NCBI RefSeq assembly: GCF_900089605.1
Contig: NZ_LT594324.1
Coordinates: 6,448,001 to 6,512,000, forward strand
Direction: 5' to 3'
DNA: 64,000 nucleotides
Source of the DNA: Micromonospora narathiwatensis
GTDB taxonomy: Bacteria; Actinomycetota; Actinomycetes; Mycobacteriales; Micromonosporaceae
A program made the position numbers and the translations under genes. The notes beneath the pieces are model-generated. The model saw nothing but the letters and a program-made list of their open reading frames with translations, was not told the DNA's origin and made no database searches. The number at the start of each line of letters is the position of its first letter. Position 1 is the stretch's first letter. This document shows positions 42,632 to 49,516 of this stretch, one piece after another.

Positions 42632-43240
42632 TCAGGTCGCCGTACCTACGCCGGGCGGGCCCGCCACGCCCCGGCGAACGGCCTCGGCGGCCAACTGCGA
42701 CCGACGCCGGTCATCGTTCGTGACCAGGCCGAACTTGTCGTAGAGGCGGGTCAGGTGCTTCTTGACCGCGCTCTCGCTCACGCCCAGCGTGGTCGCCAGG
42801 AAACGCACGGCCGGCGGCTCGGGGAAAGCGCTGCCGCCGGCCACGTACGGGCGGCAGAGCACGTCCAACAACTCCCGCTCCCGTCTGGTCAGCGCCGGCG
42901 GCGCGGGCGGCGGCTCGACGCCCACCGTCCGGGTGCCGGCCAACCGCCCGGGAGCGTGGAACACCAGCCGGGCCGGGCCGATCTCCACCCGGTCACCGTC
43001 GTGCAGCGTGCGTGCCTCCCGCAACGGCACCCCGTTGAGCGTCGTGCCGTTGGTGCTGCCCAGGTCCCGGATGATCCAGCCGGACGGGAAACGCTCGACC
43101 AGCGCGTGCAGGCGGGACACCGTCTGGCTGCCGATCGGCACCTCGTTGCCGGGCGCCCGGCCGATGGTCAGCGTGTCCGCGCTGAGCGGCACGAGCCGTA
43201 CCGCACCCGTCCCGTGGACCTCGAAGTAGCCACCCGTCAC
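42632..43240 (-). CDS. FHA-domain protein with C-terminal HTH
   Basis: The 202-aa protein has an FHA domain (about 15-85): TLTIGRAPGNEVPIG, VSRLHALVERFPSGWIIRDLGSTNGTTLNG and LHDGDRVEIGPARLVF, with the Arg, Ser, His and Asn residues that bind phosphothreonine. A C-terminal winged or LuxR-like helix follows (LTRRERELLDVLC, FLATTLGVSESAVKKHLTRLYDKFGL). Its GTG start overlaps the kinase stop by four bases (GTGA). The likely role is reading phosphorylation by that kinase and passing it to DNA as a one-protein output. No membrane span. Confidence 0.9.
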   Translation of the reverse strand: MTGGYFEVHGTGAVRLVPLSADTLTIGRAPGNEVPIGSQTVSRLHALVERFPSGWIIRDLGSTNGTTLNGVPLREARTLHDGDRVEIGPARLVFHAPGRLAGTRTVGVEPPPAPPALTRRERELLDVLCRPYVAGGSAFPEPPAVRFLATTLGVSESAVKKHLTRLYDKFGLVTNDDRRRSQLAAEAVRRGVAGPPGVGTAT

Positions 43241-45054
43241 CGATCGCACCACGGCTCGGTGGTCGCGCTGGTCACGGCACCCGAGCGGGCCGCGGTCACC
43301 GTCGCCGACGCGGTCACGCACCGCCCCGCCGACGGGTACGGCTCCGTCCACAGCTCGAACGGCTGCCCGGCCGCCCGCTGCCGGACGCCGGGCCCGCCGG
43401 CCTGAACCGACAGGTCGATCGCCCAGGTGTCGCCGCCGGTCGCCACGTTGTCCCGGTACTGCTTCCACACCCACACGTACGCCATCGTGGCGCGGCAACT
43501 CGGTGACCAGAACTGCTTGACCGAGATGGCCCGCAGGCCGCCCGCGTATCCGTAGGCCGAGGCGCCGATCTGGTAGGCGTCGCCGTAGCAGGGGCCGGGC
43601 GGGGCGTCGTCCTGGCTGGCTCTGCGGGGCACCGCCGTGCCGATGATCGCGGTGTCGAGCCGCCGGCCGGCCACGGTCAGCTCCAGCAGGCCCCGGACCG
43701 GCCCGGTCGTCCTTGGCACGACCACCAGCCGCACCTCACACCGCGCGCCCGGACCGAGCCGGTGCGACCCGCACCCGTCCGCGACGATCCGCAGGTCGTC
43801 CCGGGACGGCCCGCCCACCGTCACCCTGCCCACCGAGACCGGGTGGTCGGCGCGGTTGCGCACGGTCACCACCCGCACCGCCGACTCGGAGTTCAGCGTC
43901 AGGTCACCGAGCGCCAACCGATCAGGCAACGTGACGGGAGCGGGCGCCGGCGGGGCCTGCGAGTATCCGGTGGTGAGCACCGCCACCCCGGCGGCGAGCA
44001 GGCCGACCGACCGGCGCAGCGCGTGTCGACGTACGCCGGACGGTTGCTCGACGGTCGCGGACAGCGCGAGGGCCGCGCGCCGCCGCGCGGACAGCGACGG
44101 CGCCGGCGTGAGCCCCGGGGCCGTCGCCGCCGCGACGTCCTTGGGCGCGGCCACGTCGCCGAGCACGAACGGGGTCTCCGGCACCCCGGCCGCCGCCTGC
44201 GCCGCCCGCAGCTCCGCGGCGAACCCGGCGGCCGAACCAGGGCGGCACGCCGGGTCCTTGGCCATCGCGCGCTCCAGCGCGGCACACACCTCGTCGGGTA
44301 CGCCGAGCGGGCGCAGGTCGGGCACCGGGTCGGTGGCGATCCGGCGCAGCAGCGACGTCGGCTCCTCGTCCGTGGGGGCGAAGGCCGGTGCGCCGCGGAT
44401 CCAGTGCAGCACGGTCGAGGCCAGCGCGTAGACGTCAGCGGCCACCGAGGCCGGCTCGCCCCGCAGCACCTCCGGTGCCGCGTGCAGCACGCTCGCGGTG
44501 ACCGAGGCCCGTACCCCGGGCCGCTGGGTCCGTGCCCGGGCCTGGCCGAAGTCGGCCAGCTTCACCTCCCCGTACCCGGAGACGAGGACGTTCTCCGGCT
44601 TCACGTCGCGGTGCAGGATGCCCGCCCGGTGGGCGGTCTCCAGGGCGCCGGCCACGGCGATCCCCCCGGCGACGGCCTCCCGCCAGTCACCCGCCGTGCC
44701 GTCACGCAGTCGATCGCCGAGCGACCCGCCCTCCTCGTACGCCATCAGCAGGTACGGGTTGCCTGCGGCGGTACGGCCGGCCTGGTGCAGGGTGACGATG
44801 TGCGGGTGGTCGGAGAGCCGCCCCAGCGTCTGCAACTCCCGTTCGAAGCGGGCGCGGGACGGGCCCGCCCAGTCGGCGGCGAGCACCTTGACCGCGACCC
44901 AGCGGGAGTAGTCGGTCTGCCAGGCCCGGTAGACCACGCCGAACCCGCCCCGCCCGACCTCGACCGCGTCGGTGCACCCGTCGATCCCAAGGGCGACATC
45001 CGGGTCGGAGCCGAACTCCGGGCGTCGTGTCACGAACCGCTCACTGTGGACCAT
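43237..45054 (-). CDS. Transmembrane Ser/Thr protein kinase with Cys-containing ectodomain
   Basis: The 605-aa protein has a Hanks-type kinase domain with GRGGFGVVY (34-42), Lys56, HRDVKPEN (148-155), DFG (168-170) and APE (193-195). A juxtamembrane stretch and one membrane helix (about 347-365) follow. Residues 374-475 resemble an ASH/choice-of-anchor beta domain (GPGARCEVRLVVVPRTTGP). Residues 489-603 form a Cys-containing domain with QIGA, GGLRAISVKQFW, AYVWVWKQYRDN, FELW and a final TTEPWC. The last domain is also found alone in the secreted protein at 45808. The kinase thus looks like a receptor signalling through the overlapping FHA-HTH gene. A leaderless-type -10 box lies just before the ATG. 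Confidence 0.93.
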   Translation of the reverse strand: MVHSERFVTRRPEFGSDPDVALGIDGCTDAVEVGRGGFGVVYRAWQTDYSRWVAVKVLAADWAGPSRARFERELQTLGRLSDHPHIVTLHQAGRTAAGNPYLLMAYEEGGSLGDRLRDGTAGDWREAVAGGIAVAGALETAHRAGILHRDVKPENVLVSGYGEVKLADFGQARARTQRPGVRASVTASVLHAAPEVLRGEPASVAADVYALASTVLHWIRGAPAFAPTDEEPTSLLRRIATDPVPDLRPLGVPDEVCAALERAMAKDPACRPGSAAGFAAELRAAQAAAGVPETPFVLGDVAAPKDVAAATAPGLTPAPSLSARRRAALALSATVEQPSGVRRHALRRSVGLLAAGVAVLTTGYSQAPPAPAPVTLPDRLALGDLTLNSESAVRVVTVRNRADHPVSVGRVTVGGPSRDDLRIVADGCGSHRLGPGARCEVRLVVVPRTTGPVRGLLELTVAGRRLDTAIIGTAVPRRASQDDAPPGPCYGDAYQIGASAYGYAGGLRAISVKQFWSPSCRATMAYVWVWKQYRDNVATGGDTWAIDLSVQAGGPGVRQRAAGQPFELWTEPYPSAGRCVTASATVTAARSGAVTSATTEPWCDR

Positions 45055-45063
45055 CGCCGTCGA

Positions 45064-45069
45064 ATGCTA
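45064..45069 (-). promoter_or_regulatory. -10 box for the kinase operon
   Basis: On the minus strand TAGCAT ends nine bases before the kinase ATG at 45054, leaving at most a 2-4 base leader. This implies a near-leaderless transcript for kinase and FHA gene. Confidence 0.45.
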
Positions 45070-45133
45070 CCGATAGGCCGCGACGCGCTCATGTCCCGTT
45101 CCCGCCTCCGTCACCCGCCGTCACCCGGAACGC

Positions 45134-45169
45134 CGACGGTCCGCGCCCTGAGCAGGGCACGGACCGTCG
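45134..45169. terminator. Hairpin terminator downstream of the SapA-like gene
   Basis: Arms of 10 and 5 bp (45134-45143 plus 45145-45149 against 45154-45158 plus 45160-45169), with one mismatched pair, enclose a 4-base loop. It separates the SapA-like gene from the kinase operon. Confidence 0.8.
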
Positions 45170-45210
45170 ATATCAGTTCCGGCAGGGACTGCGCCGTCCC
45201 CGTTGTCAGG

Positions 45211-45687
45211 TCAGCCGCAGTGGACGCCGGTGTAGCCCTGACCCGAGCCTCCGCCGGACGTGTCGAAGCCGCCGACGATGTCGATGCAGTTGTGCGGGGC
45301 GTAGACGTAGACCGGCCCGGCGTACTGGGTGAAGTGCTGGCCCGCCTTGTCGCCGTCCCGCACCCAGGTGCCGCCGCTCGGGCGGGCCCCGACGTAGATG
45401 TCCCAGGCGCTCTTGATGACGCTGTCGTTCGTGCGGGCGATGACGCAGTTGTAGCCGTTCGAGCTGTTGTAATAGACGTCGATGTAGCCCCCGGGCAGGG
45501 TCCGCCATTCGATGGTCCAGGACTTCAGGAACCCGTAGGAGCTGCCGCAGTAGTTGGTCCGGGGGATGGCGTTGGCCGGACCGGCCGAGAGACCCACCAG
45601 GCCGCTGGTGGCCAGCGCGACAGCGCTGAGCATGGCGGCGGCGCGGGTACGCAGGGTGCCGGCAGAGGCGCGGCGCGAGTTCGACAT
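45211..45687 (-). CDS. Secreted SapA-like (spore-associated protein A family) protein
   Basis: The 158-aa precursor has a signal peptide (to about residue 40, ending GPANA). A mature beta-rich domain follows with NYCGSSYGFLKSW, GGYIDVYYNSSNGYNCVIART, FTQYAGPVYVYAPHNCIDIVGGF and GVHCG. This pattern of paired Cys and NSSNG-x-NCV matches spore-associated protein A-like proteins of actinomycetes, whose role is not established. AGGAAGGA precedes the ATG. It is transcribed on its own between two hairpins, so it is a separate unit beside the kinase operon. Confidence 0.85.
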   Translation of the reverse strand: MSNSRRASAGTLRTRAAAMLSAVALATSGLVGLSAGPANAIPRTNYCGSSYGFLKSWTIEWRTLPGGYIDVYYNSSNGYNCVIARTNDSVIKSAWDIYVGARPSGGTWVRDGDKAGQHFTQYAGPVYVYAPHNCIDIVGGFDTSGGGSGQGYTGVHCG

Positions 45688-45762
45688 GGACGTCCTTCCT
45701 GGTTGGGACGGTTGACGTGGACGTGACCGCGGTGACGGCCAGCACGGCGGCTGACGCCGTCT

Positions 45763-45794
45763 CGGGGCCGACCGGGTCGACCCGGCCGGCCCCG
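45763..45794. terminator. Hairpin terminator after the small secreted protein gene
   Basis: Arms of 8 bp (45763-45770, 45787-45794) and an inner 14-base palindrome (45772-45785) form a long GC hairpin, 14 bases beyond the stop at 45808. Confidence 0.75.
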
Positions 45795-45807
45795 CCCCCT
45801 TAGACGG

Positions 45808-46236
45808 TCAGCAGACGGTGCTGGTCGAACCGCCCGTCCCGTTCAGGTAGCCGGTGACGTGGGTGCAGTGCATCCAGGTCGGGGCCGGGGCGCCCCACAG
45901 CTCGGAGCGGGTGGTCTTGGTCGCCTGACCCACCCCGTAGTCCGTGCCGCTGTCGGAGTGATCGATGACGTGGACGTAGAGGTCCCAGTTCGAGTGGGTG
46001 TTGCGGTACTGCTCCCACACGTAGATGTAGGCGTAGTTGGCGCTGCAGCCGTAGTACTGCTTGACCGAGGCCGCCTCCATCCCGCCGACCGTCAGCACCC
46101 GGGTCGTGCCGATCTGGCGGACGCTGGAGCAACTGGCCGGCGTGCTGGCCAGCGCCGGGGACGCGTTGACCAGCACGGCGGCGCCGGCGGCGAGGACGGC
46201 GGTGGTGGTGGCGAGGGTACGGCGGAGCGTCGACAT
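45808..46236 (-). CDS. Small secreted protein sharing the ectodomain of the adjacent kinase
   Basis: The 142-aa precursor has a signal peptide (STLRRTLATTTAVLAAGAAVLVNASPALA). The mature domain of about 110 residues runs CSSVRQIG, GGMEAASVKQYYGCSANYAYIYVWEQYRNT, WDLYVHV, SELW, CTHVTGYL and TSTVC. Motif for motif it follows the last 115 residues of the kinase (SVKQFW, AYVWVWKQYRDN, FELW, final Cys). The role is unknown. As a free copy of a receptor domain it could compete with the receptor, associate with it, or be a related structural protein. The ATG at 46236 is chosen to fit the signal peptide; an upstream frame start at 46278 is unlikely. Confidence 0.8.
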   Translation of the reverse strand: MSTLRRTLATTTAVLAAGAAVLVNASPALASTPASCSSVRQIGTTRVLTVGGMEAASVKQYYGCSANYAYIYVWEQYRNTHSNWDLYVHVIDHSDSGTDYGVGQATKTTRSELWGAPAPTWMHCTHVTGYLNGTGGSTSTVC

Positions 46237-46309
46237 CAGGCCCTGCTTTCTCTGGTGATCCCGTCGCCAGAGAGACAACCAGGGGCGGGACGCGGCCGAC
46301 AGGTGACGA

Positions 46310-46333
46310 AACGGGGAGGGTTTGCTCCCCGTT
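46310..46333. terminator. Hairpin terminator after the 4-TM protein gene
   Basis: Nine-bp perfect arms (46310-46318, 46325-46333) with a 6-base loop, touching the stop codon of the minus-strand gene. Confidence 0.7.
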
Positions 46334-46840: not shown

Positions 46841-49516
46841 GTGTTGTACGGACGAGCCGGGGAGCAAGCGAAGGTCGAGCGACTCCTGGCGGAGGCCAGG
46901 GCTGGCCGGAGCGGAACCCTGGTTGTCCGAGGCCCGGCGGGGATCGGTAAGTCCGCGATCCTGAACCATGCCGCCGAGCGGGCGGAGGACATGCGCGTGT
47001 TACGCGGCGTCGGTGTCGAGTCCGAGGCCACGTTGCCCTTCGCCGCACTCCACCTGCTCCTGCGTACCGGTCTCGGCCGGATCCACCTGCTGCCCGACGC
47101 GCAGGCCGCCGCCCTCAACGGCGCCCTCGGGTTGGGCGACATCGCTCCGCGCAGCCGGTTCCTGGTCGGGCTGGCCACGCTGAGCCTGCTCGCCGACCTC
47201 GCCGGAGATGGCGCGCTGCTCTGCCTCATCGACGACGCACAGTGGTTCGACCAGGCGTCCCTCGACGCGCTGATGTTCGCCGCCCGCCGCCTCGAGGCCG
47301 AAGGCGTCGTCATGATCTTCACCGCCCGCGAGGGTTTCCCTGCCGTCGGGCTGCCCGAGCTCCGGCTCAGCGGGCTGGACGGCGCAGCCGCCGCCGCCCT
47401 GCTCCCCGCCGACCTTCCACCCCAGGTGCGAGAGCGCCTCATCGAGGAATCGGACGGCAACCCGCTGGCGCTCATCGAACTGCCCGCCGCGCTCAGCGCC
47501 GAGCAGCGGGCGGGACGACTGTCACCGGTTGGTGCGATGCCCGTCGCCGCCCGGGTCCAGGACGCGTTCCAAGCACAGATAGCCGCGCTTGCCGAGCCCG
47601 CACGAACCGCGCTGCTGATCGCGGCGGCGGACGGCTCCGGTGAGCTGGAGACGCTGGTAGCCGCAGGAGCCACCCTCGACGGGCTGGGAGCGGCTGAGCA
47701 GAACCGGCTGATCGAGATCGCCGGAGACGCGGTCGGCTTCCGGCACCCCCTCATCAGGGCTGCCGCCTACCAGAGCGCGCCGACCGCCCGGCGCCTTGCC
47801 GTACACCGGGCCCTCGCCGACGCGCTCACCCGCTCGTCGGCCATCGACGCGGCCGACCGGCGAGCGTGGCACCTGGCCGCCGCCGTGCTCGGTCCCGACG
47901 AGGGCATCGCCCGGGAGTTGGCGCAAGCGGCGGAGCGGGCCCGTAGCCGTGGGGGCCACACCGCGATCGCGGCCGCCTACGAGCGGGCCGCCGAGCTAAG
48001 TGTTGACCCGATCCGACGATCCGGACGACTGGCTGCGGCCGCGCTGGCCGCAAGCGACGCCGGGCTGATGGATCGGGCTGCCCGGCTCGCCGACCGCGCC
48101 ACACCCGATGTGGACGACCCGGAGATCACCGCCGCGCTGGTCCAGGTACGCGCCCATCGCGAATTCGAACTGGGCACACCACTCGCGGCGGGCCGGATCA
48201 TCATGGACGGCGTCCCCCGCGTGGCCGCCCGCTCCGCCGAGCGAGCCACCTGGCTGCTCGTGGAGGCCATCCGCTGCGCCTGGTTCGCCGGGGACACAAC
48301 GCTGGCGGAGGAGGCCGCCGCCGGACTCCGTGCGCTCCCCGCGATCGAATCGCCGCTGGTCACCGGGGCGCTCGGGCTGGCCCGCCTGTTGGCCGGGGAC
48401 ATCGACGGTGGAGTCCCGCTCATGAGCGAGGCGGTGGACGAACACCGGCGGGCCGGGCTGGGGGTGCCCGGACTGACCTTCACCGCCGCGCTGTCATTCG
48501 CGCTGGGCCGCGCCGCCCTCGCCGCGGAGATCACCGGCGGCGTCGTGACGGACTGCCAGCAGAGCGGGATGATCGGCTGGCTCGCCCACGCGCTGCAGGA
48601 TCACGGGCTGGCCCTGGGCCGGCTCGGCCGCTACGGCGAGGCCACCGCAACGCTCAACGCAGGGCTGCGACTGGCGACGGACCTGGGCCACGAGCACCGG
48701 GTGAGCTACCTGACGTGCACCCTCGCCTGGGTCCTCGCACACCTCGGGGATCGGCAGGGATGCCGCGCGAGGGCCGAAGAAGGCGTGGCGAACGCCGACA
48801 AGCAGGGCATGATTCTCGCGGCGTCCACCGGGCGCTGGGCACTGGGCGTGCTGGAACTCGGCCTGGGCCGGCCGGACGCAGCCCTCCGGCAGTTGCAGGC
48901 CATCCCGGTCACCAGCATCGCCGTCCTGTCCGCCCCGGACCAGGTCGAGGCCGCGATTCGCAGCGGCCAGCCGGAACTGGCACAGGAGCCGCTCGCCCGC
49001 TACGTCGCCTGGGCGCGGCAGGTCCGTCAACCGCCGTCGGACGCGATCGCCCTGCGCTGCCGCGCTCTCGTCCAGGAGGACGAAGCGCATTTCGCGCAGG
49101 CCGTACACCTGCACGGCGACGCTCAGCCGTACGAGCTGGCGAGGACGCGGCTCGCCTACGGTGAGTGGCTGCGGCGGGCACGACGGCGGGCAGATGCCCG
49201 CGTGCAGTTGCGGGGCGCACTGGAGATCTTCGATCGACTCGGTGCGCAGCTGTGGGCCGAACGCGCCCGCGCGGAGCTGCGCGCCACCGGAGACGTGCCG
49301 GCGGCGCCGCGCCAGGCCGGTGACCCGCTCAGCGTGCTCACCCCGCAGGAACGCCAGGTCGTACGGCTGGCGGCTGGCGGCGCGTCCAACCGCGACATCG
49401 CCGCGCGGCTCTTTCTCAGCCCGCGGACCGTGGGCTACCACCTCTACAAGGCGTTTCCCAAACTCGGGGTCACATCCCGAGCCCAACTGGCGGCGATCGC
49501 ACACCTTCCCGACTGA
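46841..49516 (+). CDS. LAL-type LuxR regulator with N-terminal AAA ATPase
   Basis: The 891-aa protein belongs to the large ATP-binding LuxR regulators. The Walker A motif GPAGIGKSAIL lies near residue 31 and Walker B in LCLIDDAQWFDQASLDAL. A long helical TPR-like region follows. A C-terminal LuxR HTH (about 826-885) has LTPQERQVVRLAAGGASNRDIAARLFLSPRTVGYHL. Such proteins commonly control antibiotic, sugar or morphogenesis genes after ATP and ligand binding. The GTG start fits a leaderless promoter (TAGGTT six bases upstream). The adjacent ECF sigma gene begins 85 bases downstream. Confidence 0.93.
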   Translation: MLYGRAGEQAKVERLLAEARAGRSGTLVVRGPAGIGKSAILNHAAERAEDMRVLRGVGVESEATLPFAALHLLLRTGLGRIHLLPDAQAAALNGALGLGDIAPRSRFLVGLATLSLLADLAGDGALLCLIDDAQWFDQASLDALMFAARRLEAEGVVMIFTAREGFPAVGLPELRLSGLDGAAAAALLPADLPPQVRERLIEESDGNPLALIELPAALSAEQRAGRLSPVGAMPVAARVQDAFQAQIAALAEPARTALLIAAADGSGELETLVAAGATLDGLGAAEQNRLIEIAGDAVGFRHPLIRAAAYQSAPTARRLAVHRALADALTRSSAIDAADRRAWHLAAAVLGPDEGIARELAQAAERARSRGGHTAIAAAYERAAELSVDPIRRSGRLAAAALAASDAGLMDRAARLADRATPDVDDPEITAALVQVRAHREFELGTPLAAGRIIMDGVPRVAARSAERATWLLVEAIRCAWFAGDTTLAEEAAAGLRALPAIESPLVTGALGLARLLAGDIDGGVPLMSEAVDEHRRAGLGVPGLTFTAALSFALGRAALAAEITGGVVTDCQQSGMIGWLAHALQDHGLALGRLGRYGEATATLNAGLRLATDLGHEHRVSYLTCTLAWVLAHLGDRQGCRARAEEGVANADKQGMILAASTGRWALGVLELGLGRPDAALRQLQAIPVTSIAVLSAPDQVEAAIRSGQPELAQEPLARYVAWARQVRQPPSDAIALRCRALVQEDEAHFAQAVHLHGDAQPYELARTRLAYGEWLRRARRRADARVQLRGALEIFDRLGAQLWAERARAELRATGDVPAAPRQAGDPLSVLTPQERQVVRLAAGGASNRDIAARLFLSPRTVGYHLYKAFPKLGVTSRAQLAAIAHLPD

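Follow-up and report, generated by a model that had tools for sequence, protein, structure and literature searches.

Why would a bacterium encode the outer domain of a receptor kinase a second time, as a free secreted protein? We asked this of a locus of the soil actinobacterium Micromonospora narathiwatensis that lies in a 64,000-nucleotide stretch of NZ_LT594324.1 (positions 6,448,001 to 6,512,000; hereafter the window). The locus has five named parts, all on the minus strand: a 33-bp conserved element; genes for two small secreted proteins, sec1 and sec2; the gene for a Ser/Thr kinase whose C-terminal domain recurs in sec1; and the gene for a protein with an FHA domain and a helix-turn-helix (FHA-HTH). 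An initial annotation had described the kinase, sec1 and the FHA gene; sec2 and the element were missing from it. As the best explanation we propose a dedicated membrane-kinase circuit, leading from the kinase through FHA-HTH and the element to sec1 and sec2 with feedback by sec1, to which we give about an even chance of being right.

BLASTP aligned the C-terminal 120 residues of the kinase with sec1 at 38% identity over 87 residues (E 3e-13), and sec1 matched the whole kinase at E 7e-12. A search of its own genome with sec1 recovered, besides the query at E 4e-93, the kinase end at E 1.1e-9, with the next match only at E 0.15. By these sequence comparisons the two domains are homologous and are the sole two significant copies in the genome. 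Nine columns, including three cysteines, were invariant in an alignment of 53 domain members (C36, Q41, G52, V73, W74, Q76, Y77, C124 and C142 in sec1 numbering), and they fell in the motifs that the initial annotation had reported as shared by the outer domain of the kinase and sec1. It had also looked to structure models, and these agreed. AlphaFold2 models had a mean pLDDT (predicted local distance difference test) of 83 for sec1, with 89 of 142 residues at 90 or above, and of 92 for the kinase ectodomain. Compared by the order of their structural elements, the two models, which are not independent as their input alignments have members in common, corresponded one to one: strand, strand, strand, helix, strand, strand, short strand, strand, strand.

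Searches of Pfam and NCBIfam found no relevant family for sec1, sequence search found no solved structural relative, and Foldseek returned no match at E 0.001 or better. We considered DUF2690 (PF10901) as the identity of the shared domain and rejected it: 3 of the 53 members matched weakly (best E 0.011), and hhalign gave a probability of 10.5% over 41 columns. Of all parts of the cluster, sec1 shows the highest conservation, with a mean identity to the window, computed over 13 of the 21 other genomes with sec1, of 84.5%, compared to 76.7% for the helix-turn-helix, 75.6% for the FHA domain, 72.9% for the kinase catalytic domain, 66.8% for the kinase copy of the shared domain and 49.0% for the Ig-like domain of the kinase. 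In a tree of the domain, kinase-borne copies formed their own clade (93/87) apart from the sec1 clade; we saw no sign of recent exchange, with moderate support.

The kinase has the catalytic motifs GRGGFG, VAVK, HRDVKPEN and DFG. FHA-HTH has an FHA domain (E 9.7e-19) with the motifs GR, SRLH and STNGT, and its helix-turn-helix part gave weak Pfam matches to LexA_DNA_bind (20.3 bits) and GerE (17.8 bits), both under the cut-off. In the own genome, the remaining matches to FHA-HTH span the FHA part only. The GTG start of its gene overlaps the kinase stop codon (GTGA), in keeping with the initial placement of the FHA gene on the same strand as the kinase and sec1. The 2.5 kb given there as the spacing of the two domain copies is too long; the gap is about 2.2 kb.

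We sampled 151 genomes of the genus, 300 of the family and 394 of the class (G and L numbers are our handles for genomes and loci). FHA-HTH lay after the kinase in all 23 loci that show the kinase to its end, and FHA-HTH (E up to 1e-30) and the domain-bearing kinase were found in the identical 21 of 151 genus genomes. The kinase and FHA-HTH are one dedicated unit.

The domain occurred in 36 of the genus genomes: as a sec1 orthologue in 14 (75-100% identical), as a kinase-borne domain only in 8, as a 142-residue-type paralogue only in 13 (about 40% identical) and as a partial match in one (G133). Thirteen of the 14 genomes with sec1 carried the domain-bearing kinase, with an in-frame stop in G026 and split over contigs in G009 and G070; the remaining one, G124, had no more than a truncated kinase next to sec1. 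With eight genomes of the family sample (G349, G255, G268, G304, G287, G204, G340 and G302), sec1 was present in 22 genomes. The initial annotation had pointed to co-occurrence in other genomes, and this was found: the kinase adjoined sec1 in 18 of the 22 (counting G070, G287 and G009, which are cut at contig ends, the truncated remnant of G124 and the interrupted G026), lay elsewhere in the genome in three (G011, G071 and G340) and was not found in G302. The adjacent genes were divergent in five genomes outside Micromonospora and co-directional in 13 within it, so the arrangement is not a single frozen operon. Adjacency in two orientations, co-occurrence and an element that, except for five 2-mismatch sites, was confined to genomes with the system or its apparent loss (described below) make a functional tie between the kinase and the secreted protein well supported.

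The domain itself ranges more widely. It was found in 50 family genomes and in 7 class genomes, two of the own genus and five of one other genus. We recognised no kinase among the open reading frames in about 3.4 kb around each of these five copies (about 1.5 kb of flank), nor in about 12 kb at each of six Terrabacter/Terracoccus loci that hold free domain copies. Four tandem genes of G210 (L111:4607-6536) each carry a sec1-type domain, and no kinase was recognised in the 11 kb around them. The free secreted copies in 13 genus genomes without the domain-bearing kinase and in the Terrabacter/Terracoccus loci indicate that the domain was not invented for the circuit. The kinase and sec1 could merely have drawn on a common actinobacterial family of secreted-protein domains, leaving sec1 as a target or neighbor without feedback. 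All of these free copies, together with the separate clade of the kinase domains and the kinases retained without intact sec1, favor this explanation, but sec1 orthologues, unlike the other domain copies, track the kinase in the genus sample, down to the truncated remnant, and just one of the 22 sec1 genomes is without a detected kinase. We consider a mere common origin somewhat unlikely.

What would connect sec1 to the kinase and FHA-HTH? In a comparison of 20 loci and the window, the sequence upstream of sec1 diverged nearly throughout except for one block, the 33-bp element, which was missing from locus L049 of G302. A pattern search of the own genome found a single site at up to 2 mismatches; shuffled windows gave an expectation of 0.01 matches at up to 3 mismatches, and a matrix scan found no second copy in the window. 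At up to 2 mismatches the pattern occurred in 22 of 151 genus genomes (1 with the backward control) and 26 of 300 family genomes (3 with the control). Of the 22 genomes with sec1, all but G302 have the element in front of the gene, at 32 to 69 bp from the start codon in the 20 sec1 genes measured. Within the genus, 18 genomes had both kinase and element, 3 the kinase only, 4 the element only and 126 neither (Fisher p 1e-16, uncorrected for phylogeny). Among the four with the element only, G124 keeps its kinase remnant, G092 has the element at a contig edge, in G066 the element adjoins a gene that by eye resembles the FHA flanking gene of other species, and the G085 site scores 11.9 bits, within the chance range. 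Outside genomes with the system or its apparent loss there were just five 2-mismatch sites, at 9.7 to 16.4 bits. The matrix was also run over loci totalling 955 kb, many picked because they carry the system. Counting duplicates, 67 matches scored above 12 bits. All that reached 19.7 bits are sites accounted for in this analysis; the three below (14.3 bits twice and 12.4 bits) come from the G071 site read in reverse and from a weak L042 copy past the FHA gene.

Other genes also lie behind the element. In the window, sec2 follows sec1 and has no element site of its own. Orthologues of sec2 (at least 68% identity) were found in 4 of 38 genomes searched, all four of which also have sec1 and the kinase, and the three unlinked ones, in G071, G304 and G204 (78%, 70% and 68% identity), had the element upstream at 50.6, 44.1 and 37.0 bits, respectively. 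In G268 the element stands before the gene for a secreted protein with a weak match to PG_binding_1, under the cut-off. Among kinase genomes with no intact sec1, four (G005, G077, G089 and G159) have the element roughly 200 bp before the kinase start, in two copies in G077, and G135 has it 574 bp upstream; in G149 it stands before a decayed sec1.

FHA-HTH is the sole DNA-binding protein recognised in the conserved cluster, and the element is its candidate site. The relation in trans in G011, G071 and G340 and the missing element in G302 fit this model, and FHA-HTH probably binds the element. Another regulator or a sigma factor could read it instead, with FHA-HTH acting elsewhere, an alternative that draws on the weakly scored helix-turn-helix behind the predicted binding, on the lack of one clean palindrome (over 21 sites, the best centre leaves 52% of pairs complementary) and on three FHA-HTH genomes without a pattern match. 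However, the single site in the own genome and the near confinement to FHA-HTH genomes, apparent scars and remnants favor a pathway-specific regulator, and since the element remains even where sec1 and the kinase lie apart, the factor would act in trans. We regard a different reader as unlikely.

In the proposed circuit, the kinase ectodomain, made up of an ASPM/SPD-2/Hydin (ASH) domain and the sec1-like domain, would sense something extracellular, and the kinase, placed in the membrane by prediction, would then act on FHA-HTH, presumably by phosphorylation. FHA-HTH would bind the 33-bp element and control sec1, with sec2 behind it; in some species its further targets may include an unlinked sec2 orthologue, the PG_binding_1-like secreted protein or the kinase itself. 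With sec1 being a second copy of the outer part of the sensor, the simplest expectation is that secreted sec1 would feed back on the kinase, either by tying up a ligand common to both or through direct contact with the ectodomain; we put this step forward tentatively. Sec1 may be a decoy, a partner or a signal for the kinase, the three roles suggested in the initial annotation. It is doubtful, if conceivable, that the main output of the locus is a diffusible copy of the receptor domain, released through FHA-HTH and a dedicated operator, which tunes or reports receptor occupancy in the colony.

Several points weigh against this circuit. It is built from sequence, with binding to the element and effects on expression as predictions. 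The helix-turn-helix matches fall under the Pfam cut-off, and the putative membrane span of the kinase is weakly hydrophobic, the best 17-residue Kyte-Doolittle mean being just 1.41, at residue 349, between the catalytic domain and the ectodomain. Linked inheritance accounts for part of the co-occurrence. In the genus sample, 8 of the 21 genomes with the kinase lack intact sec1, so sec1 is not an obligatory ligand. Three kinase genomes have no element by pattern: in G051 and G096 there is no more than a weak site past the FHA gene, and none lies in 13 kb around the G068 kinase. Several species also have weak copies of the element downstream of FHA, for which the circuit offers no explanation. 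The separate clades of the kinase domain and sec1 also belong here, yet they neither aid nor refute a direct interaction.

A different role for sec1 would be that of an agonist, an autocrine secreted signal sensed through homotypic pairing with the kinase ectodomain. The equal order of structural elements in the two models and the higher conservation of sec1 than of the kinase copy are consistent with such pairing, but high conservation suits any partner or ligand, and the kinases kept without intact sec1 argue against an agonist. We find this role improbable.

Diverged copies of the element were present just past FHA in several loci, facing inward on the opposite strand (L104:4452-4484(+), L098:7809-7841(-), L103:4982-5014(+) and L047:9203-9235(-)), with weaker copies in L042 and L045; the conserved sequence CTGGTGTGAT comes after the FHA-side copy in L104, L103, L047, L045 and L042. 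These copies may belong to a small RNA, stem from a gene since lost or be an end repeat. That the 33-bp element is itself not regulatory, and instead the end repeat of a mobile cassette with sec1, the kinase and FHA-HTH or a scar of its insertion, is very unlikely, for although the four inward-facing copies, the sites that stay where the cluster is apparently gone (G066 and G092), the differing neighborhoods of the cluster and a transposase beside the truncated G124 kinase would suit a cassette, the element keeps its short distance to sec1 starts and also precedes single unlinked sec2 genes, the window has no second copy, the G124 transposase resembles a separate insertion into the kinase, and by eye, in a survey that was not systematic, we recognised no further transposase or integrase in the locus gene listings.

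Individual loci also vary. The G026 kinase frame (L116:6560-8365) is broken by the stop within its C-terminal domain. The truncated G124 kinase (L106:7472-8533) lies beside a DDE_Tnp_IS240 transposase (70 bits), with sec1 and the element still upstream. G149 has a decayed sec1 with an intact upstream element (L104:7800-7990(-)), adjoining a different small secreted gene and the kinase. In L097, L100 and L101, which have the kinase without sec1, a divergent gene upstream of the kinase encodes a secreted product with a Tat-like signal; that of L101, the only one of the three scanned, matches alginate lyase, a possible hint of a polysaccharide ligand. Distant relatives of sec2 form a tandem pair in the own genome (G000:C1:3929853-3930711), and similar pairs occur in G090, G126, G089, G076, G268, G255 and G340. 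Upstream of sec1 in the window is a gene for a small membrane protein not found in the other loci compared, and divergent from it is a large gene at 46841-49516(+), whose product we take to be an ATPase/LuxR-type regulator. Sec2 presumably resembles spore-associated protein A.

Table 1. Features of the kinase locus, in window coordinates
Feature	Position	Strand	Description
33-bp conserved element	46298..46330	(-)	GGGGASNNAANNNTNNCCNNNYCGNCACCTNTC; lies 61 bp before sec1; putative operator or promoter
sec1	45808..46236	(-)	142 residues; signal peptide assigned by eye; free counterpart of the kinase C-terminal domain
sec2	45211..45687	(-)	158-residue secreted protein between sec1 and kinase
Ser/Thr kinase	43237..45054	(-)	605 residues; Pkinase E 1.5e-37, 129.9 bits
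Kinase catalytic domain	44239..44964	(-)	residues about 31-272; Pfam match
Putative kinase membrane span	43960..44010	(-)	residues 349-365; short, modestly hydrophobic, weak evidence
ASH/SPD-2/Hydin-type Ig-like domain of kinase	43630..43941	(-)	residues about 372-475
Kinase C-terminal domain	43240..43602	(-)	residues 485-605; homologous to sec1
FHA-HTH protein	42632..43240	(-)	202 residues; FHA first, helix-turn-helix C-terminal

For many bacterial receptor Ser/Thr kinases we know of neither the ligands nor the direct outputs. Here, sequence offers an ectodomain family without a Pfam or NCBIfam match, a predicted output protein, FHA-HTH, inherited strictly together with the kinase, and a candidate operator in front of its target genes. 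With the ectodomain family, FHA-HTH and the candidate operator all in hand, the whole path is open to test. If the circuit is correct, it would stand as a clear example of receptor-domain feedback in bacteria, since one pathway would both contain the sensor and control a secreted copy of it.

How does this locus compare to known systems? Its kinase has a catalytic domain related to that of the PknB/Stk1 PASTA kinases (NF033483, E 4.5e-46); we rejected its assignment to them, as it scored 158 bits against a cut-off of 450 and no PASTA domain was listed. The ASH domain is a module of the kinase only, and sec1 is a single domain of another kind. The closer likeness is to M. tuberculosis PknH. The PknH sensor domain is also found in Rv3705c, a culture-filtrate protein, and in four lipoproteins, LpqQ, LprH, LppH and LpqA (PMC4118811); there, as in this locus, the ectodomain of a Ser/Thr kinase is also encoded as free exported proteins. 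The traits in common are the kinase catalytic domain and the free exported ectodomain copy, export of sec1 being predicted from its signal-peptide-like N terminus only. The sensor domain differs: neither the kinase nor sec1 matched the PknH-type Pfam family at E up to 1, and the PknH-type sensor family was not among the 12 families listed for the 53 domain members at E up to 10. In this locus, and we state this for it alone, the free copy adjoins the kinase and has a conserved upstream element.

PknH also provides a parallel for the output. PknH phosphorylates EmbR, which stimulates promoter binding, and EmbR consists of an OmpR-type DNA-binding domain, a BTA domain and a C-terminal FHA domain (PMC4601284). 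Both systems pair a kinase with an FHA-bearing protein, a transcription factor in the case of EmbR and, by prediction, also here. We tried FHA-HTH as an EmbR-like factor and rejected it, since it has the FHA domain and, in place of the OmpR-type and BTA domains, just weak LexA/GerE-type and other helix-turn-helix matches; its FHA domain comes first, its weak helix-turn-helix last, and its gene overlaps that of the kinase translationally. Judged from these domain comparisons, the locus would act like the PknH/EmbR pair yet stands outside that group, as both its sensor domain and the architecture of its regulator differ. By analogy, M. tuberculosis PknH offers a precedent for a receptor kinase accompanied by free, exported copies of its outer domain.

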